64,000 bases of DNA from Methylobacter sp. (lineage in GTDB: Bacteria; Pseudomonadota; Gammaproteobacteria; Methylococcales; Methylomonadaceae): the NCBI GenBank assembly GCA_030679035.1, contig JAUXTH010000154.1, positions 1-64,000 on the forward strand, in the 5' to 3' direction. The notes under the pieces were generated by a model. The model searched no databases. It saw only the letters and a list, made by a program, of their open reading frames with translations, and had not been told where the DNA came from. Position numbers and translations under genes: made by a program. This document shows, one piece after another, positions 20,410 to 58,128 of the stretch (the first letter of the stretch is position 1; every line of letters begins with the position of its first letter).

Positions 20410-20643
20410 ATGGCGATAAGCTTAAAAAACCTGGCTGTGGGCGATTCGGGGAAGATCGTCGGCTTTGAGCAATCCGGCAAGGCTTACCGCAAACGCCTGC
20501 TGGCTATGGGCTTGACGCCGGGAACCGAGTTTAGCGTGACCCGTTTTGCGCCGATGGGAGATCCGGTGGAAATTAAATTGCGTGGATTTTCATTAACCCT
20601 GCGTAAGGATGAAGCGGCCATATTGTTGATAGAGAAACTCTGA
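20410..20643 (+). CDS. feoA: FeoA ferrous-iron transport accessory protein
   Basis: A 77-residue SH3-like cytoplasmic protein. It starts with the family pattern LKNLAVGDSGKIVGFEQSG, has RKRLLAMGLTPGTEFSVTR (in two parts) and ends with the DEAAILLIEKL strand. Its TGA overlaps the feoB ATG by one base (TGATG), implying coupled translation. It probably modulates the FeoB pore or GTPase. Confidence 0.95.
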   Translation: MAISLKNLAVGDSGKIVGFEQSGKAYRKRLLAMGLTPGTEFSVTRFAPMGDPVEIKLRGFSLTLRKDEAAILLIEKL

Positions 20644-22988
20644 TGAAAACTGATTTTACAGTTGGCGTTGTCGGCAACCCTAATTGCGGCAAGACGACGC
20701 TGTTTAATGCGCTGACCGGCGCTCGGCAGCATGTGGGCAACTGGCCCGGCGTTACGGTCGAGAAAAAGACCGGCGAATATACTTTCGATCATAAAATTAT
20801 CGAACTGGTCGATTTGCCCGGTACCTATTCATTGGAAGCCGCCGACGACCATGTCTCTTTGGATGAAAAAGTCGCCCGCGATTATGTCGCTTCCAAGCAG
20901 GCCGATTTGATCATTAACATTGTCGATGCCTCCAATCTGGAACGAAACCTGTATTTGACCTCGCAACTGATTGAGATGCGGGTGCCGATGATTTTAGCGC
21001 TCAATATGATGGATGCCGTTAAGCAACGCGGCATTAAGATAGACGTCGATTTCCTTGCGCAAACATTGGGCTGTCCGGTTATCCCGATTAGCGCCTCGAC
21101 CAAGGGCGGCATCGGCGCATTAATGGCGGCAATCAACAGCGCCGCCATCACCAAGCCGATACCTACAGCAAAAATCAGCTATGTCCCTGAGCTGGAGCAA
21201 GCCATCGATGACATTTCCCCGTTGTTGATTGAGACCGCCCGGCAACACCCTTGCGAACTGCGCTGGCTGGCCGTTCGCTTGCTGGAAGACGACACCCTGG
21301 CCAAACAGATCGCAGGGGCTGCCTTGTTGCCGACCGTCGCACAATTACAGCGTAGGGTGGAAGCGGAAACCGATGATGAAATAGACATCCTTGCCGCCGA
21401 CGCCCGTTACGGCTTCGTCAACGAATTGACCACCGGCGCGGTCTGCAAGCTAAATGAAGTGACTCGTCACACCACCGATAAAATCGACAACATCGTCTTG
21501 AATCGTTTTTTGGGCATTCCGGTTTTCCTGTTGGTCATGTATGCGATGTTCATGTTCACCATTAATATCGGCAGTGCTTTCGTTGATTTTTTCGATCAAG
21601 CTGTAGGCGCTTTATTGATCGACAGCCTAAGCTTGGCGCTCACTAATCTGAATTGGCCGCAATGGCTGATCGTATTAATCACCAATGGCGTAGGCGGCGG
21701 CATCCAGGTCGTCGCGACCTTTATCCCGATCGTCGGCTTCCTGTTCATGTTCCTGTCGGCGCTGGAAGATTCGGGCTATATGGCCAGGGCGGCGTTCGTG
21801 ATGGACAGGTTCATGCGCATGATCGGCTTGCCCGGTAAATCCTTCGTGCCGATGATCGTCGGTTTCGGCTGCAATGTGCCGGCGATTATGGCGACGCGGA
21901 CGCTGGAAAGCCAACGCGATAGGATTCTGACCAACCTGATGAATCCATTCATGTCCTGCGGAGCCAGATTGCCGGTTTACGCCTTGTTCGCCGCCGCATT
22001 TTTCCCTGTCGGCGGCCAGAATCTGGTGTTCGGCTTGTATTTGTTGGGTATCGCGGTCGCGGTGCTGACGGGCTTGATCATGCGCCATACTTTATTTAAA
22101 GGCGAATCGGCTCCCTTTATTATGGAATTGCCTGCCTACCACATGCCGACAGTGCGCGGCGTTTTTATCAGAACCTGGGACCGGCTCAAATCCTTTTTGT
22201 TCAACGCAGGCAAAGTCATCGTACCGATGGTGTTAGTGCTTAACTTCCTTAATGCACTGGGCATAGACGGTACATTCGGCCAGGAAAACAGCAACAAATC
22301 GGTCTTAAGCGAGATTGGCCGCAGCCTGACACCGGCGTTCAAACCGATGGGCATAGAAAAAGACAACTGGCCTGCGACGGTAGGCATTTTTACCGGCGTC
22401 TTAGCCAAAGAAGCGGTGGTCGGAACCTTGGATGCGTTATACAGCCAGATGGCTGCGACCGACACAAACGCCGAAAAAGCGACATTCAGTCTCGAACAGG
22501 CTTTAATCGACGCCTGCTTGACCGTGCCTAAAAACCTGCAAGATGTCGCAGACAATCTGTTAGACCCTCTGGGCCTTAATATCGGCACCGTCGATGACCT
22601 GGCGGCGGCGGCCAGCGAGCAGGAAGTCAACACCGGCACCTTCGCCGCGATGCAGCAAAGTTTCGACGGCAAAGCCGGGGCTTTCGCCTATTTGTTGTTT
22701 ATCCTGCTGTATGCGCCTTGCGTCGCGGCAACCGCTGCAATCTACCGGGAAACCAACATCAATTGGACTGTATTTGTGGTGTTCTGGACTACCGGCATTG
22801 CCTACATGACTGCAACTGTTTTTTATCAAGCGATGACCTACAGCCTGCATCCTGACTATTCATTGGTGTGGATAGCCGGATTAATCATTACCTTTTCGGC
22901 TGTATTGCTCGGTTTGTGGCTGCTCGGTAAAAATGCTGATGCAACAGACCTAAAACATCGCCGGGAGTCCTTAAGTGATACTGTCTGA
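20643..22988 (+). CDS. feoB: FeoB ferrous iron permease with GTPase domain
   Basis: A 781-residue inner-membrane Fe(II) transporter. The amino-terminal G domain has G1 GNPNCGKTT, G3 DLPGTYSL and G4 NMMD, followed by the helical regulatory region (to about residue 270) and two Gate repeats with the conserved GFGCNVPAI motif. Length matches E. coli FeoB (773). Middle gene of feoABC; its last 14 bases overlap feoC. Confidence 0.97.
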   Translation: MKTDFTVGVVGNPNCGKTTLFNALTGARQHVGNWPGVTVEKKTGEYTFDHKIIELVDLPGTYSLEAADDHVSLDEKVARDYVASKQADLIINIVDASNLERNLYLTSQLIEMRVPMILALNMMDAVKQRGIKIDVDFLAQTLGCPVIPISASTKGGIGALMAAINSAAITKPIPTAKISYVPELEQAIDDISPLLIETARQHPCELRWLAVRLLEDDTLAKQIAGAALLPTVAQLQRRVEAETDDEIDILAADARYGFVNELTTGAVCKLNEVTRHTTDKIDNIVLNRFLGIPVFLLVMYAMFMFTINIGSAFVDFFDQAVGALLIDSLSLALTNLNWPQWLIVLITNGVGGGIQVVATFIPIVGFLFMFLSALEDSGYMARAAFVMDRFMRMIGLPGKSFVPMIVGFGCNVPAIMATRTLESQRDRILTNLMNPFMSCGARLPVYALFAAAFFPVGGQNLVFGLYLLGIAVAVLTGLIMRHTLFKGESAPFIMELPAYHMPTVRGVFIRTWDRLKSFLFNAGKVIVPMVLVLNFLNALGIDGTFGQENSNKSVLSEIGRSLTPAFKPMGIEKDNWPATVGIFTGVLAKEAVVGTLDALYSQMAATDTNAEKATFSLEQALIDACLTVPKNLQDVADNLLDPLGLNIGTVDDLAAAASEQEVNTGTFAAMQQSFDGKAGAFAYLLFILLYAPCVAATAAIYRETNINWTVFVVFWTTGIAYMTATVFYQAMTYSLHPDYSLVWIAGLIITFSAVLLGLWLLGKNADATDLKHRRESLSDTV

Positions 22989-23199
22989 TTTGAGAGACTA
23001 TTTAAAGGAGCAGCGCCGGGTTGCGCTGGCGGATATAGTCACTCACTTCAACATGGATGCCGATGCCCTGCGAGGCATGCTGGACAAATGGATCAGCAAA
23101 GGCAAAGTGCGTAAACTGCCGTTGACGGCGTCTTGCGGCACCAGTTGCTGCCAGTGCGATACTGCTTTGACAGAGATTTATGAGTGGGTTGAGGAGTAA
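22975..23199 (+). CDS. feoC: FeoC-like winged-helix protein
   Basis: A 74-residue protein with a GTG start inside the end of feoB. A winged-helix region (LSDLRDYLKEQRRVALADIV, then LRGMLDKWISKGKVRKL) is followed by a cysteine group CGTSCCQC (residues 54-61) that could bind an iron-sulfur cluster, as reported for Klebsiella FeoC. It probably tunes FeoB stability or activity. Confidence 0.9.
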   Translation: MILSDLRDYLKEQRRVALADIVTHFNMDADALRGMLDKWISKGKVRKLPLTASCGTSCCQCDTALTEIYEWVEE

Positions 23200-23311: not shown

Positions 23312-23497
23312 ATGCACGAGCAAACACTCAAACAGGAAGCCTTGGAATCTCTCCAACGTCTGCCTGACAATGCCGACATTGATGAGATTATGTATCAGCT
23401 CTACGTCATCGACAAACTGCGTAAAAGTCGTGACGCCATCAAGCAAAACGAAGTGATCAGCCACGAAGATTTGAAACGCGAAATTGAACAGTGGTGA
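23312..23497 (+). CDS. Small antitoxin-like protein
   Basis: A 61-residue protein overlapping the next gene by 7 bases. The pattern LQRLPDNADIDEIMYQLYVIDKLRKS...ISHEDLKREIEQW occurs in short partners of ParE/RelE toxins. GAGGAA lies upstream of the ATG. The call rests mainly on the overlap with a recognisable toxin. Confidence 0.75.
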   Translation: MHEQTLKQEALESLQRLPDNADIDEIMYQLYVIDKLRKSRDAIKQNEVISHEDLKREIEQW

Positions 23498-23787
23498 TTA
23501 TCTGGTCAAAACCGGCGACTGAGGACCTGCGTCTGATTCACCAGTACATTGCCCATGATTCAAAACACTATGCTACCCGTGTGATTCAGGATATTACCAA
23601 CAAAGTAGAAAACCTGATGAGCCTGCCGCGTCTTGGCAGAGCGGTACCCGAGATCGGGGAGCAGAACGTCCGGGAAATTGTCATGTACTCTTACCGTATC
23701 ATGTATGAATTGATCGGCGACACCCTATACATTCACGGTATCTTCCACAAGAGAAGGCATTTCAAGCCGGAAGATTTGCAACGATAA
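23491..23787 (+). CDS. ParE/RelE-family toxin
   Basis: A 98-residue toxin beginning at one of two adjacent GTG codons (23491 or 23494). It has the ParE layout: IWSKPATEDLRLIHQYIA, LPRLGRAVPEIGEQNVREIV and the end YRIMYELIGDTLYIHGIFHKRR (in parts). It is co-translated with the small antitoxin before it. Confidence 0.88.
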   Translation: MVIIWSKPATEDLRLIHQYIAHDSKHYATRVIQDITNKVENLMSLPRLGRAVPEIGEQNVREIVMYSYRIMYELIGDTLYIHGIFHKRRHFKPEDLQR

Positions 23788-24520: not shown

Positions 24521-24731
24521 GCTGTTTTTTCCTTATCATATGGATTTAATAAAGCGTCGGAGGTGGATTTATTTATTTTCCGTATTTTTCTATGACGTGT
24601 CATTATCGTTTTTAAATATATTAATATCTGATGTTACGCAGTCAGTCGAATTTCGATCGCTTTAACATTAAAGTGTCGCTAGCGCGACAGTTGATTGAAG
24701 CGGGTTCTCGCACCCGAAGGCGAGTTACTTT

Positions 24732-24940
24732 CTTTTGCTTCGCCAAAAGAAAGTAACCAAAGAAAAGGCGACCCGGTTGCCGCTTGTTTCCTGCGCTCCT
24801 CGCTTTTATCGAGGGTCAGCAGAAGGGGCTCCTGCCCCACTGCTGACGCGCGGCATCCAGCGGGCTAGTCTCGATAAAAGCTCCGGTGCTCGGCGCGGAA
24901 AACGGGAGAAATACCATCCGTGCGTAACATCAGTTATTGA
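24732..24940. repeat. Dispersed structured repeat A, copy 2
   Basis: Nearly identical to 1-223 with a 10-12 base deletion near the centre. It keeps the nested GTCAGCAG/CTGCTGAC and TTTATCGAG/CTCGATAAAAG pairings; the loop-side changes (TTTGTC to TTTATC with GACAAA to GATAAA) are compensatory, which supports folding. It lies just beyond the 3' end of the Fap-like locus. Confidence 0.82.
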
Positions 24941-24957
24941 CTAATTTCATGCTACAA

Positions 24958-25446
24958 CTAATGAATATTAGGCTGGATAAAGTTGTTAAAAACCATGCCG
25001 CCATTATTTAAAGCCGAATTTTTTATGTTGCTAACAGCGATGTTAATAGCAGTAACGGTTCTAATAATTTGATTGTCAACGTTATTCTGGATGACAGTGC
25101 TCAACCCTGATCCCGCCAAGACAGGGGATTGATTCAGTGATCCGTTCTGGAGCAATGCAGCATTCTCAGGTAAGTGGAAAAATGAGGAGGAAACTACCGA
25201 GCCGTTCAAAGAAGTGATTCGCTCTAAACTAAAATCAATGATTATTCCGTTTGGAAATACAAATCCCCCCCTTAATTTATCTAGCTCATCGTCAGAGGCG
25301 CGCTCCCAATTGTTAAATTCGAGAACCTGATTGGCAGGGAGGGCATCCGCTAGTGCCTGGCAGGCGAAACTGGAACCGACCCAAACGGCTAGCCAGAGTA
25401 AAGGCTTGGTCAGGTTTCGATAGACATTGATCTTATATGGTTTCAT
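24958..25446 (-). CDS. Exported protein with GG-type motif and VIQN module (Fap-like locus)
   Basis: A 162-residue protein, last gene of the locus, 19 bases after a C39 protease gene. A signal peptide (about residues 13-33, ACQALA) precedes ASDDELDKLRGGF (about 50-62), a strong match to bacteriocin-type double-glycine leader ends. The carboxy part has GSGLSTVIQNNVDNQIIRT, the G-[IL]-[ST]-x-V-[IV]-Q-N module also seen in the genes at 26187 and 26698. Rich in Asn, Ser and Ile. GGAG lies 8 bases before the ATG. It is probably a substrate of the adjacent protease. Confidence 0.75.
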   Translation of the reverse strand: MKPYKINVYRNLTKPLLWLAVWVGSSFACQALADALPANQVLEFNNWERASDDELDKLRGGFVFPNGIIIDFSLERITSLNGSVVSSSFFHLPENAALLQNGSLNQSPVLAGSGLSTVIQNNVDNQIIRTVTAINIAVSNIKNSALNNGGMVFNNFIQPNIH

Positions 25447-25464
25447 GTTAAACGCTCCGCTTCA

Positions 25465-26157
25465 TTAAAAATCCCAGCGTCCGGGCTGCAACATATTAAA
25501 TTGACCTAAACTGGCTCGATCGACGGCGGAACCTAACGGTGCCTTGACCCGAAGCGCCCACTCTTGCTGATCTTGAAAATGCCTGGCTGCTAGATCCTGT
25601 TTGTCATGGATTAAAAATAAAATACGGTTTCCCCACATTTCTTCAAACTCATCCCGGGGTATTACCTTTATACCTACAGAGGGGTCTCCCAGCAGAACTT
25701 CCTGCTCGTTGAGTCCCTTAATAATAACGAAATGCAAATAACCGTTATTATTGATAATCGTGATCGCCGGTACGTTAGCTGTAATCAATTGATCCAAGTT
25801 GATCTTGAAACCATCGGAGCGATAGCCGTGTCTTTCCAGATAAAGTTTTATATCCAGTAACGAAAAGCCCAGCTGTTGAATCTTCTGTTGATCGCCATTT
25901 TGATACATATCAACAAATACACTTTGCTCGTCTACCGTATCGTCATAGTGATAGGTAAGCAGACTGGCCAACGTTGCCGAACCGCAACTGAAATCGTACT
26001 GTTGTTTGTATACAGTCTTGAACCGTCGCTCTAAAAAAGTGGTCACGGGAATATCATAGTTTCCTGCACCCGCAATGCCGGTGAAGTTCAGAGAACCTGC
26101 ATGGCTACAAAACGTGGGCAGCAGGAGAAGCATGCATTTAGCAAAAAATCGTATCAT
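25465..26157 (-). CDS. Exported C39-family cysteine peptidase (FapD-like), 2
   Basis: A 230-residue protease with its own signal peptide and no ABC-transporter part. The start 26157 has GGAGGT upstream. The papain-like triad fits C39: QQYDFSCGSAT (Cys about 58), YLHFVIIKG (His about 142) and LLGDPSVG (Asp about 158). This family cuts after double-glycine leaders; in Pseudomonas the exported form is FapD. It lies between two putative substrates. Its tail (about 190-230) extends beyond the protease fold. Confidence 0.9.
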   Translation of the reverse strand: MIRFFAKCMLLLLPTFCSHAGSLNFTGIAGAGNYDIPVTTFLERRFKTVYKQQYDFSCGSATLASLLTYHYDDTVDEQSVFVDMYQNGDQQKIQQLGFSLLDIKLYLERHGYRSDGFKINLDQLITANVPAITIINNNGYLHFVIIKGLNEQEVLLGDPSVGIKVIPRDEFEEMWGNRILFLIHDKQDLAARHFQDQQEWALRVKAPLGSAVDRASLGQFNMLQPGRWDF

Positions 26158-26186
26158 GTCGCACCTCCACCGAATAAAAATCTCCA

Positions 26187-26546
26187 TTAAGGTGCTATCG
26201 TTACACTCACGATAGTCGAATCCTGAATGATGACGTTATTGCCGCTGTTTTGAATAACGCTGGTAATGCCGCTAGCCTGGGCAAATGAGCCATGATCGAT
26301 AATGTTGTAACCATTGACGTTATTGATGGCTTGATTACCACTTAATGTGGCTCGCAGATTCATATTATTAAGAGTTGTCATATTTACGCCTTCACGCCCA
26401 CGCGCATTATCCAACTCTTCTAACGGCATTGCATTGGACTGTGAAAAAAGTAACTTATCCTGGTTTTGAACAGAATTAGCTTCTGCCTGACTTTGCATAA
26501 TAACTACAACGGGTATTAAAACGCAGTATTTGAAAATAATTCCCAT
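26187..26546 (-). CDS. Small exported protein with GG-like motif and VIQN module
   Basis: A 119-residue protein; ATG 26546 has AAGGAGG 6 bases upstream, so the longer frame is dropped. After a signal peptide (to about residue 23, SQAEA) comes MPLEELDNARGREG (about 39-52), like the LxxxELDxxRGG motif of the 162-residue neighbour but with an imperfect GG. The end has SGITSVIQNSGNNVIIQDS. It is probably a secreted fibre component or processed peptide of the locus. Confidence 0.72.
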   Translation of the reverse strand: MGIIFKYCVLIPVVVIMQSQAEANSVQNQDKLLFSQSNAMPLEELDNARGREGVNMTTLNNMNLRATLSGNQAINNVNGYNIIDHGSFAQASGITSVIQNSGNNVIIQDSTIVSVTIAP

Positions 26547-26697
26547 AACGTCCTCCTTACATATTGGATGATAGTCAGTTACTCTCATCTGAGTGATAAG
26601 TCGTATGCTTTGTAATACTTGCAACCCTTGATTGGTTGGGGTGTTGTTTTAAATGCGTACGCTTTCAAAATAAGATGAGGGTAATTAACTTTATTAG

Positions 26698-27462
26698 TTA
26701 ATCAACCTTAATAGCAGCCGAACCTTGGGTAACATTTACAGCACCATCAACTAATACTGATTGTTGCACTAAACCACCACCAGAGTTTTGAACGGTTTGG
26801 GTGATGCCGGCGTTGCCAATAATCGAGTGATTGATATTATTGCCAAGTGATATAGAAGCAAGCTCCGTAGCATTAGTTGGTAAAATAGAAGGGTTGCCAG
26901 TGACAGCACCATCCAGAACTTGATTGTTGGCTTTGTAAGTACTGGTGATATTCCCACCTCTAGATGCTATAGAACCGTTTCCACTAGCAGTTAAGATGCT
27001 GTTATCCGAGCTGTTGCTGTTGTCTGTAGTTGCATTGCCGCCACCAGTAGCCGCAGCAGATCCGGTTCCGTTTGAATATGCCGTGCTCCTATTGGAATGG
27101 TCGCTGTTGTCTGTAGTTGCATTACCACCACCAGTAGCAGCAGCTGATCCGGTTCCATTGGAATTCGCCAGACTGTTGTCGGTAGTTGAAACTGCAGTAC
27201 TGCCATTATTGGCAGCCGCGGAACCTTGAGCAAATGTCTCAGACTCGCTACTGTTAGAGTGATAGGATAAAGCGGTGCCACTACCGTTTACCGCCGCATC
27301 GGCTGCGGTGGCACTAGGGTTAACAACAACAATAGCAGTAGCAATAGCGGTTGCATCACTGCCGCTAATAGCAGAAGTAGTCGGATCTGCCCATGCATTA
27401 GACGCTGAACCCAGGGCTATCAGGACACTTGCAGTTAATATTTTTTTATTAAATGGTTTCAT
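26698..27462 (-). CDS. Asn/Ser/Gly/Ala-rich exported protein with internal repeat (fibre candidate)
   Basis: A 254-residue low-complexity protein with a signal peptide (cut about ANA-WADP). A 20-residue unit beginning SNGTGSAAATGG occurs twice, at residues about 101-120 and 129-149. The sequence is nearly free of Cys and aromatic residues. The carboxy part has NAGITQTVQNSGGGLVQQS, the same module as in the proteins at 24958 and 26187. No GG leader motif is seen. Size, composition and place beside a FapF-like pore suggest the main amyloid-type subunit, comparable to FapB/FapC, but repeat sequences differ from those. Confidence 0.75.
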   Translation of the reverse strand: MKPFNKKILTASVLIALGSASNAWADPTTSAISGSDATAIATAIVVVNPSATAADAAVNGSGTALSYHSNSSESETFAQGSAAANNGSTAVSTTDNSLANSNGTGSAAATGGGNATTDNSDHSNRSTAYSNGTGSAAATGGGNATTDNSNSSDNSILTASGNGSIASRGGNITSTYKANNQVLDGAVTGNPSILPTNATELASISLGNNINHSIIGNAGITQTVQNSGGGLVQQSVLVDGAVNVTQGSAAIKVD

Positions 27463-27558
27463 TGTTATTGCTCCATAAATATATTCAAAATGGCATCAGA
27501 TTTTGTTCGATAAAAAAATATCTGATGGTTTAGGACAACCTCGTGTCATGTACCCATC

Positions 27559-27587
27559 TAAAGGGCGACCTATCGGTCGTCCTTTAG
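27559..27587. terminator. Hairpin between the FapF-like gene and the repeat protein gene
   Basis: TAAAGGGCGACC-TATC-GGTCGTCCTTTA forms an 11-12 pair stem just after the stop of the FapF-like gene on the minus strand. No clear T run follows, so partial termination or mRNA protection is possible. Confidence 0.5.
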
Positions 27588-27590
27588 GTT

Positions 27591-28829
27591 CTACGATTTG
27601 TTTGCAGAGGGGATGTCGAATCTGAACGGAATAGTGATGTTCAGAAAATAAGCCGGTGACGAATCGGTCAGTCCAATGCCGCCTAAAGTAGAGAAAAACA
27701 GACGGTGGCCAATGGTCGATGCGGCTCCCACAGTAAAAAAACTTGAAACAGTGTCACTGCCCTGAACATTAATATTATTGATCTTGGTCTCTTGGGCATA
27801 GGTTTGCTGCAGCCCAATGCTTAAAGATGTTTGTGGGCTTGCGGCTAAGGTTGCGCCAACCGACAGGCTCAGTTGATCGCCAGGTTCAAAGCCATTTTTC
27901 TTTAAGGTTTTGTGGTAGTCGACTCTTCCGGTAAAGGCTAAAGGATCCTGCCGTTTTAGCGCGGTCATTGATGCGGTAAAGCCATTAAACCCGCCGCCCA
28001 TTGCAACGTTATTGTTGCTAGTACTGCCAGTTGGAGCATTCCAGGTCAGCCTGGCTATAAGATCAGGAAGCCAACCGCTTTCATGCATTAAGGTTTTGGC
28101 CAATCCAATATTGATATCACCGATAGAATTACCGGTATTACTGGTTTCTTGAGAATTAGTACCCGCGGGGATAACCGCGGAGTGATTGATAAACTGATAA
28201 GGGATTCGAAATTCGGCTTGGGATTCAAAAGGCAGCCCAACCAACAAATTTGCACCCACATTGAACTCATTTGTACGAATACTCGCGTTCGTTACTTGTA
28301 TATTGTCGTTATTAGCAAAAAGGAGCGGCTGTTTTGTCTCGCGCCTTGAATAAGTTGCAAAAGGTTGGATTTCGGCTTGTCCAAACGGTAACAGCAAGGC
28401 ACCTGTCTGAACTAAGGTACGCTCTAATGCGCGCTGAGCTGCGTCCTCATCCACTTCAAAACTGCCGGCTGCCGCTTTACCTTGTTGAGTAGTTGCTGTA
28501 TTTTTCTGAACGGGCGGCTGATTTAAAGGTTGAGAGGCAGCGATTTTTTCAGACGGACCGGTTTGTGCTCTAGTAACGGCGGTATTGGCCTGTGCGTTGC
28601 TTTCCAATTGCTGTACCCGATGTTGTAGATCACCAATTAACTTGTCACGCTCATCAAGCTTTTGTATAAGCCGGTTAGCTAACGTTGTATCCGGTACATT
28701 GCCTGGTCCCTGGACTGAGGCGCAACTTGATATAATCATCCCAGTGCCAACCATCAATACAAACCTGGATGATGTTCTCCAGGGCACAGCAGTGGATCTC
28801 AAGATATTTACTTTATTAGGTATTGTCAT
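27591..28829 (-). CDS. FapF-like outer-membrane secretion pore (lipoprotein)
   Basis: A 412-residue protein. A lipobox (ISSC, Cys about 36) is followed by a coiled coil (about 48-76, LDERDKLIGDLQHRVQQLES), a Gln/Thr-rich linker and a beta-rich barrel from about residue 128, opening AQRALERTLVQTGALLLPFG, with many alternating strands and a terminal aromatic-type strand FLNITIPFRFDI. This is the FapF layout: periplasmic coiled coil, plug, then barrel. The lipobox is unusual for FapF. It starts 7 bases after the C39 gene, so they are co-transcribed. Confidence 0.82.
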   Translation of the reverse strand: MTIPNKVNILRSTAVPWRTSSRFVLMVGTGMIISSCASVQGPGNVPDTTLANRLIQKLDERDKLIGDLQHRVQQLESNAQANTAVTRAQTGPSEKIAASQPLNQPPVQKNTATTQQGKAAAGSFEVDEDAAQRALERTLVQTGALLLPFGQAEIQPFATYSRRETKQPLLFANNDNIQVTNASIRTNEFNVGANLLVGLPFESQAEFRIPYQFINHSAVIPAGTNSQETSNTGNSIGDINIGLAKTLMHESGWLPDLIARLTWNAPTGSTSNNNVAMGGGFNGFTASMTALKRQDPLAFTGRVDYHKTLKKNGFEPGDQLSLSVGATLAASPQTSLSIGLQQTYAQETKINNINVQGSDTVSSFFTVGAASTIGHRLFFSTLGGIGLTDSSPAYFLNITIPFRFDIPSANKS

Positions 28830-28836
28830 AATTCAC

Positions 28837-29445
28837 CTATCGGGTCATAACAAATTCACTAGCGTTTGGCGCTAGGTGATTAAGCGGCTCAACACCATCA
28901 AGCCGGGAGATTACAAAACCGACCTTGCCTATTTGCGGAAAGTCGATTCTTATGTCTTCAAACGGTTCAACCAGCATGGTTCTATTGCCCCAAGCTGGGT
29001 CTGCCAACAGCACACGATTACCCAGCATTCCGCGAAAGATAACAAAGTGGTTGTAGCCAAAAATGTTTACAGGGACGATGATAGGGGCCTTTTTTATAAG
29101 GTCATCAAAGGTTAACTTGCCATAACCAAGCCCCTTATAACCGCGAGCATCCACATAGCGTTTAAGATCTAACAGAGAAAACCCCTGTCTAATCGTTACC
29201 AACCCCGGAAACTTAATGTATTCAGGCCGGTTCATCAGCGCATTTGCCACCTCTTTTTCCGTTACAAAGTCGTCATGCTGATAATTCAACAATGTGGTCA
29301 AAGCCGCCGCCCCGCAGCTTAAGTCCCATTGTTGCACCACAACATTTTCTCGGCGCATTTCAAAAAGCGACTTGACGGAACGTTCTTCCGCGAAACTCGA
29401 AAAACTTGTGATCAGACATATAAAAACACAGCCTCTTTTAACCAT
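28837..29445 (-). CDS. Exported C39-family cysteine peptidase (FapD-like), 1
   Basis: A 202-residue protease. The open frame extends to 29637, but start 29445 places a signal peptide (VFICLITSFSSFA) first; no strong ribosome site is visible, so the start is less sure. The triad is seen in VQQWDLSCGAAAL (Cys about 44), GYNHFVIFRG (His about 133) and LLADPAWGN (Asp about 149). It is clearly diverged from the second C39 enzyme at 25465. It begins the operon that continues with the FapF-like pore. Confidence 0.88.
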   Translation of the reverse strand: MVKRGCVFICLITSFSSFAEERSVKSLFEMRRENVVVQQWDLSCGAAALTTLLNYQHDDFVTEKEVANALMNRPEYIKFPGLVTIRQGFSLLDLKRYVDARGYKGLGYGKLTFDDLIKKAPIIVPVNIFGYNHFVIFRGMLGNRVLLADPAWGNRTMLVEPFEDIRIDFPQIGKVGFVISRLDGVEPLNHLAPNASEFVMTR

Positions 29446-29700
29446 TTCAACATTTGAACAAAGGGTGATAATAAGTTTTTTAATGGTTTTTTTTATATCA
29501 GCAGCAACGTTTATTTTTTCTGCATTAATACATAATATTAAATAAAAAAACCTTTCCGATAACACCCCCGTTAATGTAACTATGAAAGCATAGATAAGCA
29601 GTCGATAACTATATTCGTTATAATCAGTTAAAATCATTATTATCTCCGCTTTAATTATTTATTTCGGATTCTTAATGAGTTAAGAATTATTGTTTCCCAA

Positions 29701-29770
29701 CGTTTTCTTTTGCCATAAACGTCTTTCATTGCAAAAGAAAACGCTCTGCACTATTATCTAGCGCAGAGCG
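29701..29770 (-). terminator. Tandem hairpins ending the small-protein block
   Basis: On the minus strand, CGCTCTGC-N13-GCAGAGCG is followed directly by TTTTCTTTT, a good intrinsic terminator for the gene ending at 29849. The T stretch is itself the first arm of a second hairpin (GTTTTCTTTTGC pairing with GCAAAAGAAAAC). This separates the small-protein genes from the protease-pore operon. Confidence 0.75.
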
Positions 29771-29848
29771 TAACTTAACAGTCGTGCTCTACTAGCGGGA
29801 TTTGTCTCTTACTCTTAGCCGAAAGGGGCATTTCCTGCTTTTTCTTCT

Positions 29849-30193
29849 TTAGAATAGCGTTGCAGCTGAAGAAGCGATACTATCCGCTCTTGCTCCATTA
29901 GTAATTGCGCCCGGAGTATAGCTAGAAGCTGCTACTGCCGCACTAGCTCCAGCTGAACCAACAAATCCAGCTCCTGGAGTGACAACGACTGCTCCAGTTG
30001 AAGCAGTCAGGCCGAGTAGGTTGGAAATAGCTGCGGCACCGGCATCAGCTATAGCGGCACCTTGAGGAATGAATACTCCTCCAGCGTTGACACCATCCAT
30101 TTGAGTTGTTGATAGAGACATGGGCTCTGCACTTACGCCGCCGGCAATTACCAACAATGAAACACCCGCTAACATACAAGTAATTTTTTTCAT
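29849..30193 (-). CDS. Small exported Ala/Gly/Val-rich protein with GG leader motif
   Basis: A 114-residue protein. Signal peptide residues 1-22 (GGVSA-EP), then at once SLSTTQMDGVNAGG, which fits the L-S-x-x-Q/E-M/L-x-x-V-x-G-G leader. The rest is Ala/Gly/Ser/Val-rich with no Cys. GGAG precedes the start. Product after GG cleavage would be about 75 residues. A likely substrate of the C39 peptidases; amyloid-like peptide or bacteriocin-like peptide are both possible. Confidence 0.75.
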   Translation of the reverse strand: MKKITCMLAGVSLLVIAGGVSAEPMSLSTTQMDGVNAGGVFIPQGAAIADAGAAAISNLLGLTASTGAVVVTPGAGFVGSAGASAAVAASSYTPGAITNGARADSIASSAATLF

Positions 30194-30245
30194 TTTATAT
30201 TCTCCAAATTGTTAAATATCGTTTTTCATGGTCAAGAAACGCTTT

Positions 30246-30530
30246 TTATAGAGCAACGCCTTCAGCATGAGATAAAGATACAGCCACATCTTGAGTGATC
30301 TGCCCACCCTGAGTTGGGAGGACATGAAGCACCGTGACTGTTGTCAACGTTTGGGTTAAGGTTGCAGCCCCCAATAAACCGATTGCAGTAGCTGATGCTC
30401 CAGCTATCGCTAGACCGCCTGCGCTTACATTGTCCATCTGTGTTTCAGTCAGTGCTACTGGTTCATTAGCAAACGCAGAACCCATGCCAACAACTAGTAC
30501 ACCTGCAACTATTGATTTTATTAGTTTCAT
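30246..30530 (-). CDS. Small exported protein with GG leader motif
   Basis: A 94-residue protein built like its neighbour: signal peptide (GSAFA-NE), then ALTETQMDNVSAGGLAIAG with an exact double-glycine end at about residue 39, then a hydrophobic Ala/Thr/Leu/Val-rich tail. AGAGG lies before the ATG. The near identity of the xTxTQMDxVxAGG block in two adjacent genes with different tails is typical of a common leader carrying variable cargo. Confidence 0.75.
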   Translation of the reverse strand: MKLIKSIVAGVLVVGMGSAFANEPVALTETQMDNVSAGGLAIAGASATAIGLLGAATLTQTLTTVTVLHVLPTQGGQITQDVAVSLSHAEGVAL

Positions 30531-30547
30531 TGTAAATACCTCTTAAG

Positions 30548-30586
30548 TATTATTAAAAAAGCCCTTAAACTTTATAAAGTTTAAGG
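30548..30586 (-). terminator. Terminator between small-protein genes
   Basis: The perfect palindrome CCTTAAACTTTATAAAGTTTAAGG (30563-30586), read on the minus strand, is followed by GCTTTTTTAATAA. It would end the transcript of the 147-residue gene upstream, implying that the 94-residue gene has its own promoter or is read by partial read-through. Confidence 0.7.
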
Positions 30587-30688
30587 AATTACTTAGCATG
30601 CTCCCCCTAAACACAGCAGAGAGACATTCTAAATTCTTTAAGCCGTATAGACGGGTAACTAGCCTACCGGCGATTAAAAAATAGCGAG

Positions 30689-31132
30689 TTAAAGCGGATT
30701 GGTAGTAGGTGCGCTGACTGAAACAATCGCACTTCCGCTCATATTAACTAGTTGACCGGATGAGTGAACACTCAGTTGCCCCGCCTGAACATTTGGGCCT
30801 GTTAGATCCGTTGTGGGCGTTACCGACGTACCCGTCGACGCCCCATTCCCCGCAGCTCCTGCCTGAGCCAGGCCTCCAACAATAGTCGCCCCACCGGTAA
30901 GTCCCGGATTGCCGTTGCCAGTTAACGCCGCTGTGGCTGTAGTACTGGTTTTTGTGAGTGCCAATACAGGCGAATAACCAAAAGCAGTCGCAATAACGCC
31001 AGCAGTTAACCCCGCAGTAACCTGATCCATTTCATTGAGTGAAAGCAACACGGTACCCGATGGAGACGGCTCCGCCATAGCAACCGACAAGGTCATACAG
31101 GCGGGTATTAAATAAGCAATTTTCTTGATCAT
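30689..31132 (-). CDS. Exported protein with AG-type leader motif
   Basis: A 147-residue protein; ATG 31132 has AAGGAG 7 bases upstream, so the longer frame is dropped. Signal peptide (SVAMA-EP), then LLSLNEMDQVTAGLTAG: the same leader as the two genes downstream but AG in place of GG. The remainder is Gly/Thr/Ala/Ser-rich with GAAGNGASTGTS. First gene of the Fap-like block. Product and role unknown. Confidence 0.7.
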   Translation of the reverse strand: MIKKIAYLIPACMTLSVAMAEPSPSGTVLLSLNEMDQVTAGLTAGVIATAFGYSPVLALTKTSTTATAALTGNGNPGLTGGATIVGGLAQAGAAGNGASTGTSVTPTTDLTGPNVQAGQLSVHSSGQLVNMSGSAIVSVSAPTTNPL

Positions 31133-31831
31133 GAGTCTTACTCCTTGAATATCGTAAATAAGAAATATCTTGTTATACTTTTTTGCAGCTAACTTCATAA
31201 AGAGCGTCCGATAATTCAAACTAACCCATGTTGATAGTGGTTAATAATGTAGTTGCCCCTGCCATCAAATATTCGGATAAGGTTAAATTAACCATGAATC
31301 TCGGCATCTCTCTGAGCTAACGGTTATCTCGGATGTAAGTATCCTTAAATGAATCTTAAATTTCCATAGGTGGCATATCAATAAATCATTAAAAATCATC
31401 TAGATAGGTGTAATTGCTTAGGTGGTAAAGCGTATTTTTAGTATGAAATAATCTCTGACAAGCTCGCTATTAATGGCGGTTCGCTCTCCTTGCGGGTTGA
31501 CATCCATGAAGACCTGCTTGTTGGCAATGCCAAGGCTGCTTTGGTCTCGAATTTGAGTTATGCAGGAAGAGGTGCATATGTCTTTGCTGTGGATTGTGGT
31601 GAGGAAAGTAATCGCAGCAGGAAATGGATCATAAGGGGGTAAACAGTCTTACTATTTGAGTCGGTGGCGGAAGAAGGAATAGTTATCTAACTCCAGTACG
31701 TTCAAAATTTGCCTTGCGAGTTGCTCTTAAAATAAGGCTTGTCGTTTGTTTTGAAGTCAATTCAGGCGATAATGCTTGTTGCCTATTAGACACGTGAGCT
31801 CTCAGGCGCACTCAACTACGGAATAAGTGTT
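31133..31831. other. Long non-coding gap
   Basis: About 700 bases between the divergent Fap-like locus and the corrinoid adenosyltransferase gene. It must hold the promoters of both. No RNA gene, cobalamin riboswitch box or convincing open frame was recognised; short stretches near 31560-31610 faintly resemble repeat E. Confidence 0.5.
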
Positions 31832-54312: not shown

Positions 54313-54957
54313 ATGAAAAAGAACAAGGGATGTATTGGCCGTATAAATAAATTTATGGCATTAGTGGTATGCGTAGCTCTGCTTTACGGGTGCTCAATTA
54401 ATCATGCTGCACAGGCACCAACCCCTTTGGATTACAAACAAGTAAAGCTTGGGGCGTCGCGTACAGAAACAATAGCGTTGCTTGGCTTCCCTAAGCTTAC
54501 AGATCAAAAAGATAACAAGAAGGTTGATTTATTTGATTTATTTGATGGCTACCACTCTGCAACTAAAGCACGAATTATTCTATATGTTGCGGGTGATCTA
54601 TTGACAATAGGCCTATCTGAAATAATCTTTTGGCCTATAGAGTCAGGTATTTTTGATGGGCAAAAGTGTCGCGGCTCAGTTGCTTATGATGTTAATGACC
54701 TAGTTACGGGTTACGAGTTTTTGGATGTCCATGGCAAGCATTTGTGGTTTTCACCTCCCACCGCCTCAAGTAAGGAAGGGGTGCCACTTGAGGCATGTAC
54801 AGGCTCAAGGCCAAGTGATATTAGGAAGACATCAGGCTACGAAAATATGACAGACGATGAAATACGTATTCATGGTAAAGATCATGGATTCATTGTTTGC
54901 CCTGAATCAAGCCCTAGGAGTCTGTCGGATTTAGCAGATCAAAAAGTGTTAAAATAG
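54313..54957 (+). CDS. Lipoprotein with BamE/SmpA-like motif
   Basis: A 214-residue outer- or inner-membrane lipoprotein; lipobox LLYGC with Cys at about residue 27. VKLGASRTETIALLGFPKL (about 44-62) resembles the G-x-T-x-x-x-x-x-x-LG-P strand-helix of BamE-like proteins. A hydrophobic stretch (LYVAGDLLTIGLSEIIFWPI) follows. The end lies directly before the transposase gene, so it may have been shortened by that insertion. Role unknown. Confidence 0.65.
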   Translation: MKKNKGCIGRINKFMALVVCVALLYGCSINHAAQAPTPLDYKQVKLGASRTETIALLGFPKLTDQKDNKKVDLFDLFDGYHSATKARIILYVAGDLLTIGLSEIIFWPIESGIFDGQKCRGSVAYDVNDLVTGYEFLDVHGKHLWFSPPTASSKEGVPLEACTGSRPSDIRKTSGYENMTDDEIRIHGKDHGFIVCPESSPRSLSDLADQKVLK

Positions 54958-54987
54958 CCCCACCGAAACACTGAATCAAAAACAAAA

Positions 54988-56346
54988 ATGGCTACCCAAT
55001 TCATCCTGATAGATCGCGATACCCCTTACATTCTACCTCCGTGTGTTCAGGACTATTTGCCCGAAGAGCACATGGCCCGTTTTGTTGTGGAGATTGTTGA
55101 TCAACTGGATTTAGGAACGCTATCAGCCGTCTATGCGGGCAAAGGAAAACGTCCCTATCATCCGGCGATGCTGTTAGCGTTGTTATTCTACGGCTACGCG
55201 ACCGGCGTGTTTTCCAGTCGCAAGTTGGAGAAAGCCACTCATGATTCGATGGCCTTCAAATACATCTGCGCCAACGAAAACCCAGATCACGACACCATCA
55301 ACAGCTTCCGCAAACGCTTTGGCAAAGAGATTGAAGGCTTGTTTGTCGAGATATTGGTGCTTGCCGAAGCCTTGGGGCTGCTTAAGCTGGGCACAGTGAG
55401 CCTGGACGGCACCAAAATCAAAGCCAATGCCAGCAAACACAAAGCCTTGAGTTGGGATTACGCCAATCAACTGGAAGCCCAGTTCAAACAGGAAGTCGAC
55501 GCCCTGATGAAGCTGGCGGAAGCCGCCGATAACACGCCTCTTCCCGAAGACATGGATGTGCCCAAGGAGCTCAAGCGCCGCCAAGACCGATTAGTGGTGA
55601 TTGCCAAAGCCAAACAGGAAATCCAGGCCCGCGCGAAAGTGCGTTACGCGCAAGAAAAAGCCGAGTATGACGAAAAGCTGGCCAAGCGTGAAAAACACCT
55701 GAGTGAAACCGACAAGAAAATGGGCGGCAAAGTCCCCCAAGCGCCTACCGATGCGCCTCAGGGCAAAGATCAAGTCAGCTTGACCGATGAAGAGTCCCGC
55801 ATCATACCGACCCCTAATGGTTTTGAGCAAGCCTATAACGCCCAAGCCAGCGTTGATATTGCCAGCCACCTGATCGTTGCTCATCACATCACCCAACACA
55901 CCAACGACAAACAAGAAATCGAACCCACCTTAACCAAACTGGGAGAGCTCCCGAAATGCCTGGGAACTGTTGGCAACCTGTTGGCCGACACCGGTTACTT
56001 CAGTCAGGCAAATGTAAAAGCGTGCGCTGACGCAAAGATAAACCCGTACATCGCCCCAAAGCGGCAAAGCCATAACCAAACCCTTGAAGCCCGGTTTCAG
56101 CATCAGCCGGAAATAGACGAGCCCCCCTTGTCGCCGGTTGAGGCCATGACCCATCGCTTAACAACCAAAGCGGGCAAAGCGCTTTACGGCAAGCGAAAAT
56201 CAACCGTTGAAACCGTGTTTGGCATCATTAAACACGTTCAGGGGTTCAGGCAATTCCATGTTCGAGGCCTGGAATCCGTCCAAAGTGAATGGAATTTAGT
56301 CTGTATAGGCTGGAATTTGAAAAGAATGCATGTATTGAGAGGGTAA
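54988..56346 (+). CDS. IS1182-family transposase
   Basis: A 452-residue DDE transposase, apparently intact. Catalytic residues fit D140 (SLDGTKIKAN), D334 (LADTGYFS) and E408 (STVETVFGIIK). A long Lys/Glu coiled region (about 160-250) separates the first two. Terminal inverted repeats were not found by eye, so the element ends are not given. Higher G+C than the genes around it, so it arrived separately in the island. Confidence 0.92.
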   Translation: MATQFILIDRDTPYILPPCVQDYLPEEHMARFVVEIVDQLDLGTLSAVYAGKGKRPYHPAMLLALLFYGYATGVFSSRKLEKATHDSMAFKYICANENPDHDTINSFRKRFGKEIEGLFVEILVLAEALGLLKLGTVSLDGTKIKANASKHKALSWDYANQLEAQFKQEVDALMKLAEAADNTPLPEDMDVPKELKRRQDRLVVIAKAKQEIQARAKVRYAQEKAEYDEKLAKREKHLSETDKKMGGKVPQAPTDAPQGKDQVSLTDEESRIIPTPNGFEQAYNAQASVDIASHLIVAHHITQHTNDKQEIEPTLTKLGELPKCLGTVGNLLADTGYFSQANVKACADAKINPYIAPKRQSHNQTLEARFQHQPEIDEPPLSPVEAMTHRLTTKAGKALYGKRKSTVETVFGIIKHVQGFRQFHVRGLESVQSEWNLVCIGWNLKRMHVLRG

Positions 56347-56610
56347 TAGAGGGAAAAAGAGCTTTGAGCAGGTCATAAAACAGAACCATGGGCATTAAAA
56401 ATCCCAACAAACCACTTTTTTAAATTTTAAACGCGATTAGATGCGCGGGTAAGTGCTGTTAATCCGACGGACTCCTAGGCTTTAAAAACCTATGCCGCAT
56501 TGATAATTGCATTCTTGTATTAATTTATTTTCTTAGTAGCAAAACTAAGCAGCGGTAAGTTGCTAAACTGAGTTGATGAAAGGCTTTTCTTAATAAGAAC
56601 TATTAATGTC
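56347..56610. other. Gap between transposase and next island gene
   Basis: No gene. It likely contains the right end of the insertion sequence. Bases 56545-56575 (CTAAGCAGCGGTAAG...AACTGAGTTG) repeat the leader before 54313. Confidence 0.5.
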
Positions 56611-57546
56611 ATGAACAATTATAAACAAATTATTTTTATGAGCTTGCTTGTTTTATTCGTGATGACCCAGAAAAGCATAGCAGCAACACTTGTTCAATGC
56701 GGAGAGAGCAGTACCCACACTGGCGGTGAATTTAATGTAATTGGTACCAACAATAATTTTCCTTCTCTACGAAATGGGCCTGGAAATAAATCTGAAAAAA
56801 TCATCAATGAAACGGCAACAAGTATGAGTACAGTAACCCAATATATGGGGCTTGATGATTCTGTAACTATCAATGAGGAGTGTACAAATAATGGTTGGTC
56901 ATTGGTACGAGTTATAAAACCCGCTTATCTTAAAGATTCGTACCATGGATGGGTTGAATCAAAGTACATTGATAAAGGACAGTCGACTGAAAATACTGAT
57001 AAATACAGTGGAAAAATTCCTTCTTACGTCTTAGACCCTTATACTAAAAAAGAATACCCAAAAACAGTACAAAAATATAAATCCAGATTAAAAGAAATCG
57101 AGTTATTGCGAAAAAAAGCAGCAATAATGGTGATCGATAGTGGAAAATGTGATCAAGTTATAGCGTCAGAAGTTGACACAGATAGTCCATTAAAAGATCT
57201 ACGCTTTTATGTTGATTGTGAAGGATATACAAGATTTTATCTTACCGAAAGTGAAATAGTGAAAGATTCAACTGTAAAGACTCAAAAAGAAAAGGCTTGG
57301 TCTATAGAGAATGCACTTGCTTCATGCAAACAAGCTATAAAAGATAGGGCTCTAATTCCTTCCGAAGCAGAAATTCACGACATCATGGGAACAACTTTTT
57401 CAGAATCACCAGTAACACATAACGTTGTTTTAGAAATGAAATTTGAGGCAAAAAATGCATTTGGTGTAAACATTCCTTATGCAGCTATTTGTCACTTTGA
57501 GCCAGGAAGGGTGGGTACAATTGACATAACCAATAGATCTAACTAG
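56611..57546 (+). CDS. Exported SH3-like domain protein of the island
   Basis: A 311-residue protein with a signal peptide (to about residue 24, KSIAA). Residues about 45-125 look like a bacterial SH3 domain (FPSLRNGPGNKSEKI, NNGWSLVRV, HGWVESKYI). The carboxy part (about 225-310) shows CKQAIKDRALIPSEAEIH...AKNAFGVNIPYAAICHFE, a pattern shared with the next gene. A cell-wall or interaction role is possible. A+T-rich codon use. Confidence 0.68.
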   Translation: MNNYKQIIFMSLLVLFVMTQKSIAATLVQCGESSTHTGGEFNVIGTNNNFPSLRNGPGNKSEKIINETATSMSTVTQYMGLDDSVTINEECTNNGWSLVRVIKPAYLKDSYHGWVESKYIDKGQSTENTDKYSGKIPSYVLDPYTKKEYPKTVQKYKSRLKEIELLRKKAAIMVIDSGKCDQVIASEVDTDSPLKDLRFYVDCEGYTRFYLTESEIVKDSTVKTQKEKAWSIENALASCKQAIKDRALIPSEAEIHDIMGTTFSESPVTHNVVLEMKFEAKNAFGVNIPYAAICHFEPGRVGTIDITNRSN

Positions 57547-57582
57547 CTTATGGGTAGTTAGATCACTGAATATAGGATATAA

Positions 57583-58128
57583 ATGCAAACTAAAAATATT
57601 GTAATAATTGCCAGTCTGACCGTTGTTAGTCTGATGTTTGGTTTGTTCTGGGTTATAGCTCCCGCACTTATGAAAGATAAGGTTGTTGGGTTAGTTACTT
57701 TTGCAAGTGCAGACCGTCAGTGTTTTAACTACTACAAAAATAAAGAAGACTACTTTAAAGATCCTGACTCTGCATATATAGAAAGTCGTCGTATATTAAC
57801 CAAAAAAGATAATTTAGAAGAATTAAAAGCTCTTCAAGAAATTATTGAGATTGATAAGGTCCTTAAAATTAAGGAATATGATTCTGTCGTACAGATAAAG
57901 GTGAGAGCACGTAACAGTATGGGGGGCTATACTTCTGATGATATTTATTGCCCTCTTGTGGATAAAAAGTTCAATAGAATTGATTTATTGAGATATGACG
58001 TACTTTATTCAATAAAAAAATCTACTGAGGAAGTCGAACTAATAAAAGAGAAATGCACTACAGTAATTGGGTTTTCTGACACCCATAAAGAAAGTTGCCT
58101 ACGAGTTAATCCTGATGGATCTCATTAG
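57583..58128 (+). CDS. Single-span island protein related to the preceding gene's tail
   Basis: A 181-residue protein with one membrane helix (about 6-28). The rest follows the same pattern as the end of the 56611 product: CFNYYKNKEDYFKDPDSAYIES, then VVQIKVRARNSMGGYTSDDIYC and NRIDLL. Two or three cysteines may pair. It begins 36 bases after that gene, so the two are probably co-transcribed. Function unknown. Confidence 0.65.
   Translation: MQTKNIVIIASLTVVSLMFGLFWVIAPALMKDKVVGLVTFASADRQCFNYYKNKEDYFKDPDSAYIESRRILTKKDNLEELKALQEIIEIDKVLKIKEYDSVVQIKVRARNSMGGYTSDDIYCPLVDKKFNRIDLLRYDVLYSIKKSTEEVELIKEKCTTVIGFSDTHKESCLRVNPDGSH

Follow-up and report, generated by a model that had tools for sequence, protein, structure and literature searches.

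The stretch from position 24,958 to 31,132 of a contig (JAUXTH010000154.1) of Methylobacter sp., a methane-oxidizing bacterium, carries two exported C39 peptidases beside a single FapF-like pore, which raises the question of whether these genes form one Fap-like pathway with an extra protease or two systems side by side. In the window (the whole stretch of DNA that was analyzed, 64,000 nucleotides long), this region was found to contain nine genes, all on the minus strand and at the same coordinates as in the initial annotation. Our comparisons make it likely that two Fap-type systems, referred to as modules A and B, are juxtaposed here, rather than one pathway with an additional protease.

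Organization of the Locus

Read from its sequence, module A (27591–31132) is a self-contained unit of three small proteins, a C39 peptidase and a FapF-type pore:

30689–31132, minus strand: cargo 1 (147 aa), ORF from the ATG at 31132, with the leader LSLNEMDQVTAG behind its signal peptide and the cut predicted to follow residue 41
30246–30530, minus strand: cargo 2 (94 aa), with the leader LTETQMDNVSAG behind its signal peptide and the cut predicted to follow residue 38; DNA pattern match in its own genome
29849–30193, minus strand: cargo 3 (114 aa), with the leader LSTTQMDGVNAG behind its signal peptide and the cut predicted to follow residue 38; DNA pattern match in its own genome
29741–29771, minus strand: terminator-like hairpin of 13 pairs followed by a T-rich run, separating the cargo genes from the protease and pore genes
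28837–29637, minus strand: exported C39 peptidase without an ABC domain; Pfam Peptidase_C39 44 bits, NCBIfam FilB 104.9 bits and FapD 78.6 bits
27591–28829, minus strand: FapF-type pore with lipobox, coiled coil (47–86), linker, plug helix (128–141) and a predicted beta-barrel of 12 main strands

Module B (24958–27462) is, judged by its gene content, most of a divergent Fap operon, with a repeat protein, a leader-bearing subunit, a FapD-like C39 peptidase and a FapE-like protein:

26698–27462, minus strand: low-complexity repeat protein in the FapC position; signal peptide, no leader motif, no NQQ
26187–26546, minus strand: small subunit of 119 aa, in which a signal peptide precedes the leader MPLEELDNARGR (last residue 51); SGITSVIQNSGNNVIIQ near the C-terminus
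25465–26157, minus strand: FapD-like C39 peptidase, NCBIfam FapD 126.2 bits; start at 26157 by analogy with relatives
24958–25446, minus strand: FapE-like protein; leader ASDDELDKLRGG ending at residue 61; NCBIfam FapE 18.3 bits over residues 28–72
24628–24957, no strand assigned: dispersed repeat directly downstream of module B

Signal peptides were called with a crude hydrophobicity rule (threshold 1.9) and were found in eight of the nine genes; the FapE-like protein scored 1.86 and by eye resembles a signal peptide-bearing protein. The small exported substrates described in the initial annotation were recovered on the same strand. Each of the five small proteins also bears, behind the signal stretch, a leader of the double-glycine type, which that annotation had not mentioned. 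All three module A cargos carry a signal peptide followed by the canonical form LxxxQ/E-MDxVxAG. The same register was found in two module B proteins, which are looser at -12 and -1, and in FapE homologues.

The predicted mature cargos of module A are rich in Ala, Ser, Thr, Gly and Val, lack Cys and have net charges of 0, -2 and -1. Seven homologues of cargo 1 were found in related loci (40–54% identity). A cargo structure model was beta-rich at low confidence (mean pLDDT 64), and a Foldseek search of it against PDB gave no matches at E ≤ 0.001; likewise, a Pfam scan of eight further cargo- and subunit-type proteins gave none above the cut-off. Terminator-like hairpins are a weak class because 11 sites were observed against 7.4 expected in shuffled sequences; the stem at 29741–29771 was the longest of them.

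In module B, the position and order of the repeat protein are conserved in the loci of eight relatives, and it gave no matches in Pfam or NCBIfam. The NQQ motif was found in none of the nine window proteins. Homologues of the small subunit adjoin FapD-like genes.

C39 Peptidases and FapF-Type Pores

Peptidase_C39 was the sole Pfam match above the cut-off in each of the two peptidases, with no fused ABC transporter, as had been claimed at the outset. The catalytic Gln, Cys, His and Asp are kept in both (Q102, C108, H197 and D213 in the 28837 protein), and their relatives in PDB include 6mpz and 4ry2. In profile searches, both matched FapD below its cut-off of 330 bits (126.2 bits for module B and 78.6 bits for module A), while the best score of the module A enzyme was that with FilB (104.9 bits, cut-off 475). 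If translation of the module A enzyme began at the alternative start at 29445, the product would be a 202-aa form that has a signal-like stretch of its own; the crude rule accepts the long and the short form alike. The two enzymes showed 31% identity and fell into different clades of the tree. The module B enzyme grouped with C39 peptidases of FapE loci (support 87, with a long-branch warning on their join); a broader starred set (32 rows) contains this enzyme and those of the FapE loci as well.

The 27591 protein had been called a FapF-like pore with a lipobox, and both assignments stood. The lipobox is ISSC with Cys 36, NCBIfam FapF scored 57.8 bits (cut-off 700), the best PDB match by sequence was FapF 5o65 (E 1.2e-07), and the structure model (mean pLDDT 83) had FapF 5o67 as its best Foldseek match (E 1.3e-18); the unrelated porin family that the initial annotation had named as grounds for refutation was not borne out. 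The FilC profile gave no match at E ≤ 1. A lipobox as a general feature of the pore family was rejected: the regular expression found it in 13 of 59 homologous pores, and inspection by eye gave six convincing cases, all in Methylococcaceae (L041–L046), and a few possible ones, L053 among them.

A second FapF-like gene of the genome lies on contig C131 (143.3 bits, NCBIfam FapF cut-off 700, by sequence only) and matches FilC at 62 bits. The end of this contig is identical to 140 bases of the repeat downstream of module B, and module B probably uses the C131 pore.

Occurrence of the Modules in Relatives

The gene order of module A recurs, standing alone, in four genomes (G005, G010, G020 and G029). 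A 3.75-kb segment carrying module A (27540–31288) is missing at the corresponding site of G008, G009, G012 and G019, as shown by alignments to L028, L029, L032 and L177. Among 23 genomes of the genus, the module A C39 gene was present in four, the module B C39 gene in nine and both in two; in G010, the other genome with both, they lie on different contigs with long flanks. The adjacency of homologues in other genomes, whose absence would have refuted the initial annotation, was seen within each module rather than across modules A and B.

Linkage of Leader, Peptidase and Pore

In a survey of 69 loci that contain a related C39 peptidase, near-copies among them, a leader-bearing exported small cargo stood beside the C39 gene in 50 loci, compared to 0 of 73 elsewhere. 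Among small ORFs with a signal, the leader was present in 97 of 251 within 4 kb of the C39 gene and in 3 of 56 farther away. The strict leader was not found in 19 of the 69 loci by the automated scan; some of these have variants by eye, and others, such as L047 and L096, have none. In a set of 79 distinct leaders, from which nine loci near the window were excluded, L was found at -12 in 78 and Q or E at -8 in 66, neither being required by the search. A FapF-type pore was present in 59 of the 69 loci, directly downstream in 47.

When loci were sampled by way of the pore instead, 11 of 17 had a generic leader, which was carried by 14 of 41 nearby ORFs, 0 of 28 distant ones and 2 of 75 controls; one of the 14 matches (L164, 9505–9750) looks spurious. 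The leader was also found by regular expression in 14 of 16 FapE homologues. The FapE profile gave no match over its cut-off in 369 genomes of the class, and a plasmid search for FapE gave one weak Acidithiobacillus match.

This linkage, and a leader register common to FapE homologues and a pair of module B proteins, suggest that FapD-family enzymes are periplasmic leader peptidases; FapE is a likely substrate of FapD in canonical Fap systems. The available parts of two studies (PMC5557850; PMC6173800) leave the substrate of FapD undetermined, naming FapE and FapF as candidates, and describe the Fap proteins as lacking a canonical C39 site; the available text of a 2025 review (PMC12822426) has FapD thought to process FapE and FapF. 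PMC5557850, in the part available, also reports no peptides from about the first 70 residues of FapE. From the leader, the position of the cut can be predicted to the residue in FapE-type proteins as well as in about a hundred cargo ORFs, a figure that includes near-copies. For FapE, suspected in print without a known site, this would be a testable answer, and the leader offers a route to finding exported matrix or signalling proteins.

Proposed Mechanism and Alternative Explanations

We think it probable that two FapF/C39 systems lie side by side, in which the C39 peptidase trims Sec-exported double-glycine precursors before their passage through a pore. The small precursors would carry a Sec signal peptide and, behind it, the double-glycine-type leader, and Sec and signal peptidase I would bring them into the periplasm, where the exported C39 peptidase would recognize the leader by hydrophobic residues at -12, -7 and -4 and a small residue at -2, and cut after it (AG in module A; in module B, RGG or RGR). 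Once released, the protein, probably unfolded and rich in Ala, Ser, Thr and Gly, would leave through the FapF-type trimeric barrel and assemble at or outside the surface. Module A would process its three cargos, and module B the FapE-like protein and the small subunit of a divergent Fap fibre, which may be amyloid. The FapC-like protein has no leader, and therefore not all cargo would be processed. The genes, their leaders and linkage, the C39 clades and the architecture of the pore are read from sequence, whereas cleavage, the succession of steps, passage through the pore and assembly at the surface are inferred from them.

A joint pathway, in which both proteases and all substrates share the 27591 pore as proposed in the initial annotation, agrees with the adjacency of the genes on one strand in the window. 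However, other genomes have the modules separately (in G010 on two different contigs), four relatives lack the module A segment at this site, the C39 clades differ and a second FapF-like gene is present on C131, which makes one pore with two proteases very unlikely. An unrelated uptake channel of the COG4313/phenol porin kind, placed beside the protease by chance, would fit the Pfam match of the pore to Phenol_MetA_deg (28.3 bits) and the COG4313 channel 4rl8, which ranks after FapF by fold; but FapF scored best by both sequence and fold and the C39-pore linkage was found in 59 of 69 loci, so that a plain phenol porin was rejected and this explanation appears highly improbable.

Leaders of class II bacteriocins and microcins have their register at -12, -7, -4, -2 and -1. 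Since the module A leader is in this register, module A might export bacteriocin- or autolysis-type peptides (Nap- or microcin-like) in place of matrix or fibre proteins. The Neisseria Nap island, as described in the available part of PMC11798529, likewise couples GG peptides, a C39 peptidase and a FapF homologue. The near-neutral charges and lack of Cys of the predicted mature cargos, compared to cationic Naps, their Ala/Ser/Thr/Gly/Val-rich composition and the beta-rich, low-confidence model argue against such peptides, which we consider unlikely; around module A, moreover, no immunity gene was noticed. It is more doubtful still that the leader is a recognition tag only, with the C39 protein acting as a chaperone or cutting FapF and the cargo left uncut at the leader. 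In the available text of PMC5557850, FapF is put forward as something that FapD may cut, and some C39-like domains are said to be without catalytic activity, but a need for the FapD Cys in FapC secretion is reported there too; moreover, the catalytic residues are conserved in both window enzymes and the small -2/-1 pair is kept in the leaders.

Comparison With Known Systems

Peptidase-containing ATP-binding transporters (PCATs) of class II bacteriocins and microcins share the C39 domain with the window enzymes, and the module A leader has the hydrophobic -12/-7/-4 and small -2/-1 residues of their register. In contrast to PCATs, the window enzymes are not fused to an ABC transporter and would act after Sec export, in the periplasm.

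In a literature search whose coverage excluded bioRxiv preprints and most subscription papers, the nearest printed account of Sec-exported double-glycine cargo with FapF-type pores was that of the Neisseria nap island (NapABC, NapP and NapF; PMC11798529). As in module A, a C39 peptidase, a FapF homologue and GG-leader small proteins form one small unit. According to the available part of this source, the island is thought to be horizontally acquired, and the Naps are cationic and promote lysis, with the holin-like NapH suggested for inner-membrane transport. Module A cargos differ in their near-zero charge and their signal peptides, none being mentioned there for Naps. A further literature search on haemocin genes gave no paper on haemocin, judged by titles and the opening of the abstracts. 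Resemblance to the putative pilus of Acinetobacter (filABCDEF) lies in the module A C39 peptidase, which scores best against FilB, and in FilC, which is FapF-related and matched by the C131 pore; the FilB score stays below its cut-off and the window pore does not match FilC.

Compared to Pseudomonas Fap (FapA–F), the FapC-like protein of module B has other repeats, a FapA was not noticed, the nine proteins lack NQQ Asn/Gln-rich amyloid repeats, and module A has several short double-glycine-leader cargos instead of FapB-, FapC- or FapE-like genes; the NCBIfam equivalog cut-offs for FapD, FapE and FapF were all missed (126.2/330, 18.3/250 and 57.8/700 bits). Shared with it are the pore with coiled coil, linker, plug helix and 12-stranded barrel in module A, an exported and catalytically complete C39 peptidase and a FapE-like protein in module B, and the gene order C-B-D-E-F in relatives of module B. 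We lean toward a general Sec-then-double-glycine route. In it, FapD/FilB/NapP-type C39 enzymes would act in the periplasm as leader peptidases, and their cut would admit Sec-exported, low-complexity surface proteins from many unrelated families to FapF-type pores; such a route would extend to many proteobacteria and to at least one acidobacterial lineage (L100 and L101). If this is true, Pseudomonas Fap would be one specialized case of a general export route, with FapE as its key substrate, and module A an unnamed cargo-rich branch.

Two Modules and Their Genes

The minus strand of the window was found to hold nine genes between 24958 and 31132, and a signal peptide was called by a crude rule in all of them except the FapE-like gene, which fell narrowly below. 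Judged by the arrangement in relatives, this stretch, annotated initially as one locus, is composed of two modules:

27591–31132, minus strand: module A, with cargos 1–3 (small exported leader-bearing proteins), a C39 peptidase (28837) and a FapF-type pore (27591)
24958–27462, minus strand: module B, with a repeat protein (26698), a small subunit (26187), a FapD-like C39 (25465) and a FapE-like protein (24958)

Peptidase_C39 was the sole Pfam match above cut-off for the 25465 and 28837 proteins. The top-ranked NCBIfam profiles were FapD for the former (126.2 bits) and FilB for the latter (104.9 bits), while the 27591 protein matched FapF (57.8 bits) and the 24958 protein matched FapE weakly (18.3 bits, residues 28–72); none of these four matches reached the NCBIfam cut-off. 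The window further contains the iron-transport genes FeoB and FeoC (20643–23199), a ParE-type toxin gene (23312–23787; Pfam, 54.7 bits) with a small gene directly upstream, lacking a Pfam match, that perhaps encodes an antitoxin, and a region (56000–60000) with a G+C content of 0.33–0.37 compared to about 0.5.

Module A was present without adjoining module B genes in four genomes (G005, G010, G020, and G029), and the same-genus genomes G005, G010, and G020 carried a fourth leader-bearing cargo 3′ of the pore. A FapF gene followed module B within about 650 bases in G006, G008, G010, G011, G012, G019, G021, and G025. Alignment to the window showed that 27540–31288, including all of module A, was missing from G008, G009, G012, and G019, in which the flanks adjoin, give or take about 30 bases. 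The two enzymes fell into separate clades when 92 C39 domains were placed in a tree by a quick method. That of module B joined the FapE-locus C39s (support 87, the join being flagged for long branches), and that of module A lay within a clade of 60 rows, 50 of which are module A or stand beside a strict-leader cargo. Among 23 genomes of the genus, with the enzymes told apart by bit score, that of module A was found in four, that of module B in nine and both in two.

Possible Location of the Module B Pore

A second FapF-like gene (143 bits) was detected in the same genome on another contig (C131:4563–5852), with a gene judged SodB-like by eye beside it, an arrangement shared with G012. Over its final 140 bases, C131 shows full identity to window 24628–24767, which lies within a repeat just 3′ of the FapE-like gene. 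Two features are relevant here:

1–222 and 24628–24957: dispersed repeat, two copies 89% identical, also at the C131 end
54988–56346: transposase-like ORF, named by eye

Since C131 ends within the repeat, the module B pore may either lie next to the rest of the module on the actual chromosome or have been separated from it at the repeat, and the assembly is compatible with both. In G009, the FapE-side and FapF-side contigs both break off between the two genes, and their ends match window 54914–55059 and 56332–56478, which flank the transposase-like ORF; this fits an IS-like element that may split the FapE-like/FapF operon in that genome.

Leaders in Cargos beside Module A-type C39 Enzymes

In the module A cargos, the signal peptide is followed by L-S/T-x-x-Q/E-M-D-x-V-x-A-G. 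This places L, M, V, A, and G at −12, −7, −4, −2, and −1, respectively, which is the double-glycine leader register of the bacteriocin literature. Within the own genome, only cargos 2 and 3 matched the leader DNA pattern, cargo 1 (30689–31132) departing from it at the first base.

Searching with six aligned C39s, five of them of module A type and the sixth from G028, yielded 69 loci, which are not independent: L042, L043, L044, L046, and L104 appear to repeat contigs already compared, L100 and L101 are identical in C39, and L062, L067, and L108 are near-copies. A FapF-type ORF was present in 59; it shared the strand of the C39 in 51 and came immediately after it in 47. Of the ten loci lacking this ORF, L068, L071, L086, L097, and L105 stop at or near the C39, and L064, L077, L084, L094, and L099 showed no such ORF despite room.

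Of 251 small ORFs with a signal call that lie no more than 4 kb from the C39, 97 contained the strict motif [ML]Dx[VILT][TSNAQ][AG][GA], compared to 3 of 56 farther off and 55 of 2,747 ORFs of 60–300 aa without signal call. Twelve control regions held 73 signal-bearing ORFs, none of them with the motif. At least one strict-motif ORF was present in 50 of the 69 loci, and 88 of 100 cargo ORFs lay on the same strand as the C39. Among 79 distinct leaders (loci L041–L047, L071, and L105 removed; among the loci retained, L053 and L058, both Methylothermaceae, may be rather near relatives), L at −12 was kept in 78, Q/E at −8 in 66 and P at −15 in 57, although the motif left these positions free. Of the 19 loci missing the strict motif, L065, L075, L080, L100, and L107 contain such leaders by eye, missed through distance, start choice or a letter, and L098, L104, and L106 contain looser forms; no leader was seen by eye in the rest, excluding from the reading L102 and L103, whose C39s are near-copies of that of L104.

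For a second sample, loci were selected by their pore. FapF matches with E ≤ 1e-20 were found in 35 of 369 genomes (37 matches), and 20 regions were taken, leaving aside the window's genome and 16 sites whose genomes had already given a FapE match; overlap with the 69-locus scan is possible. A C39 was present in 17 regions. There, 14 of the 41 signal-bearing ORFs lying no more than 2.5 kb away carried a generic leader (one looks spurious), compared to none of the 28 lying more than 3.5 kb away and 2 of 75 controls (p about 2e-4 and 6e-6, respectively, by Fisher test with ORFs treated as independent). These leaders occurred in 11 of the 17 loci, and reading by eye added RGGF-type ORFs at L161 and L163.

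Pore Structure and Cargo Composition

The AlphaFold model of the 27591 pore (41-row alignment, mean pLDDT 83) predicted a coiled-coil-like helix (47–86), a low-confidence linker, a helix (128–141) within the conserved block FEVDExAAxRALERTLxQxGALLLP, and 12 main strands. Its top PDB matches were FapF (5o67/5o65/5o68), followed by the COG4313 channel 4rl8. Other FapF-type pores carry extra N-terminal Pfam domains, LysM (L090), SPOR (L104), and AMIN (L024), hinting at peptidoglycan anchoring.

The predicted mature cargos (100 ORFs including near-copies) consist of 54% Ala+Ser+Thr+Gly+Val with a median of 82 residues, and 72 lack Cys. The fold model of cargo 1 was weak and beta-rich, with a short helix (32–38) within the leader. 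Some short, leader-bearing Oxalobacteraceae cargos (L055, L057, L063, and L082) contain SPVxxxQI...SGN stretches that are curlin-like by eye. A CC motif, mostly ACCG, was present in 11 of 100 cargo ORFs, several from Nitrosomonadaceae and others (L048, L049, L052, L062, L067, L084, L088, and L108). The fourth Methylobacter cargo has this motif too (L031, L038, and L039). One Pseudoteredinibacter cargo (L106:5134–5523) combines a signal peptide and the leader LTSEEMKSTEGA with a hydrophobic tail that contains glycine and is microcin-like by eye.

FapE-type Leaders and Comparison with Known Systems

The class-wide draw gave 16 FapE homologues in 15 of 369 genomes. In 14, [LM]-x-x-[MLI]-R-G-[RK] was followed by Y or F; the exceptions were L113, with Gln at −4 by eye, and L123, whose listed ORF begins too far upstream for the 110-residue search range. 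The leader ended at residue 44–91 in these 14 and at or before residue 70 in 11. The two module B subunits bear ELDKLRGG and ELDNARGR, and a FapE-like protein in G024 bears EMAEMRGRF and adjoins a gene with NQQ-type repeats. We infer that FapD would cleave at the end of the FapE leader.

In PMC5557850, the target of FapD is described as unclear and Fap proteins as having no canonical C39 sequences, and FapE is the sole subunit with no peptides from the N-terminal ~70 residues. FapD is also termed a putative protease (PMC11787515), its action on FapE has been suspected (PMC5557850, PMC6173800, and PMC12822426), and FapD–FapF co-localisation is published for other phyla (PMC6173800). Our search of the open-access literature found no published account of a FapE leader, nor of a precursor combining a Sec signal with a double-glycine leader in association with this machinery. 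In Neisseria, the published nap island unites GG peptides, a C39 and a FapF homologue (PMC11798529). With that island and the suspected FapD–FapE relation in print, and the Sec-plus-leader precursor not found there, the leader is a strong, testable lead on FapD.
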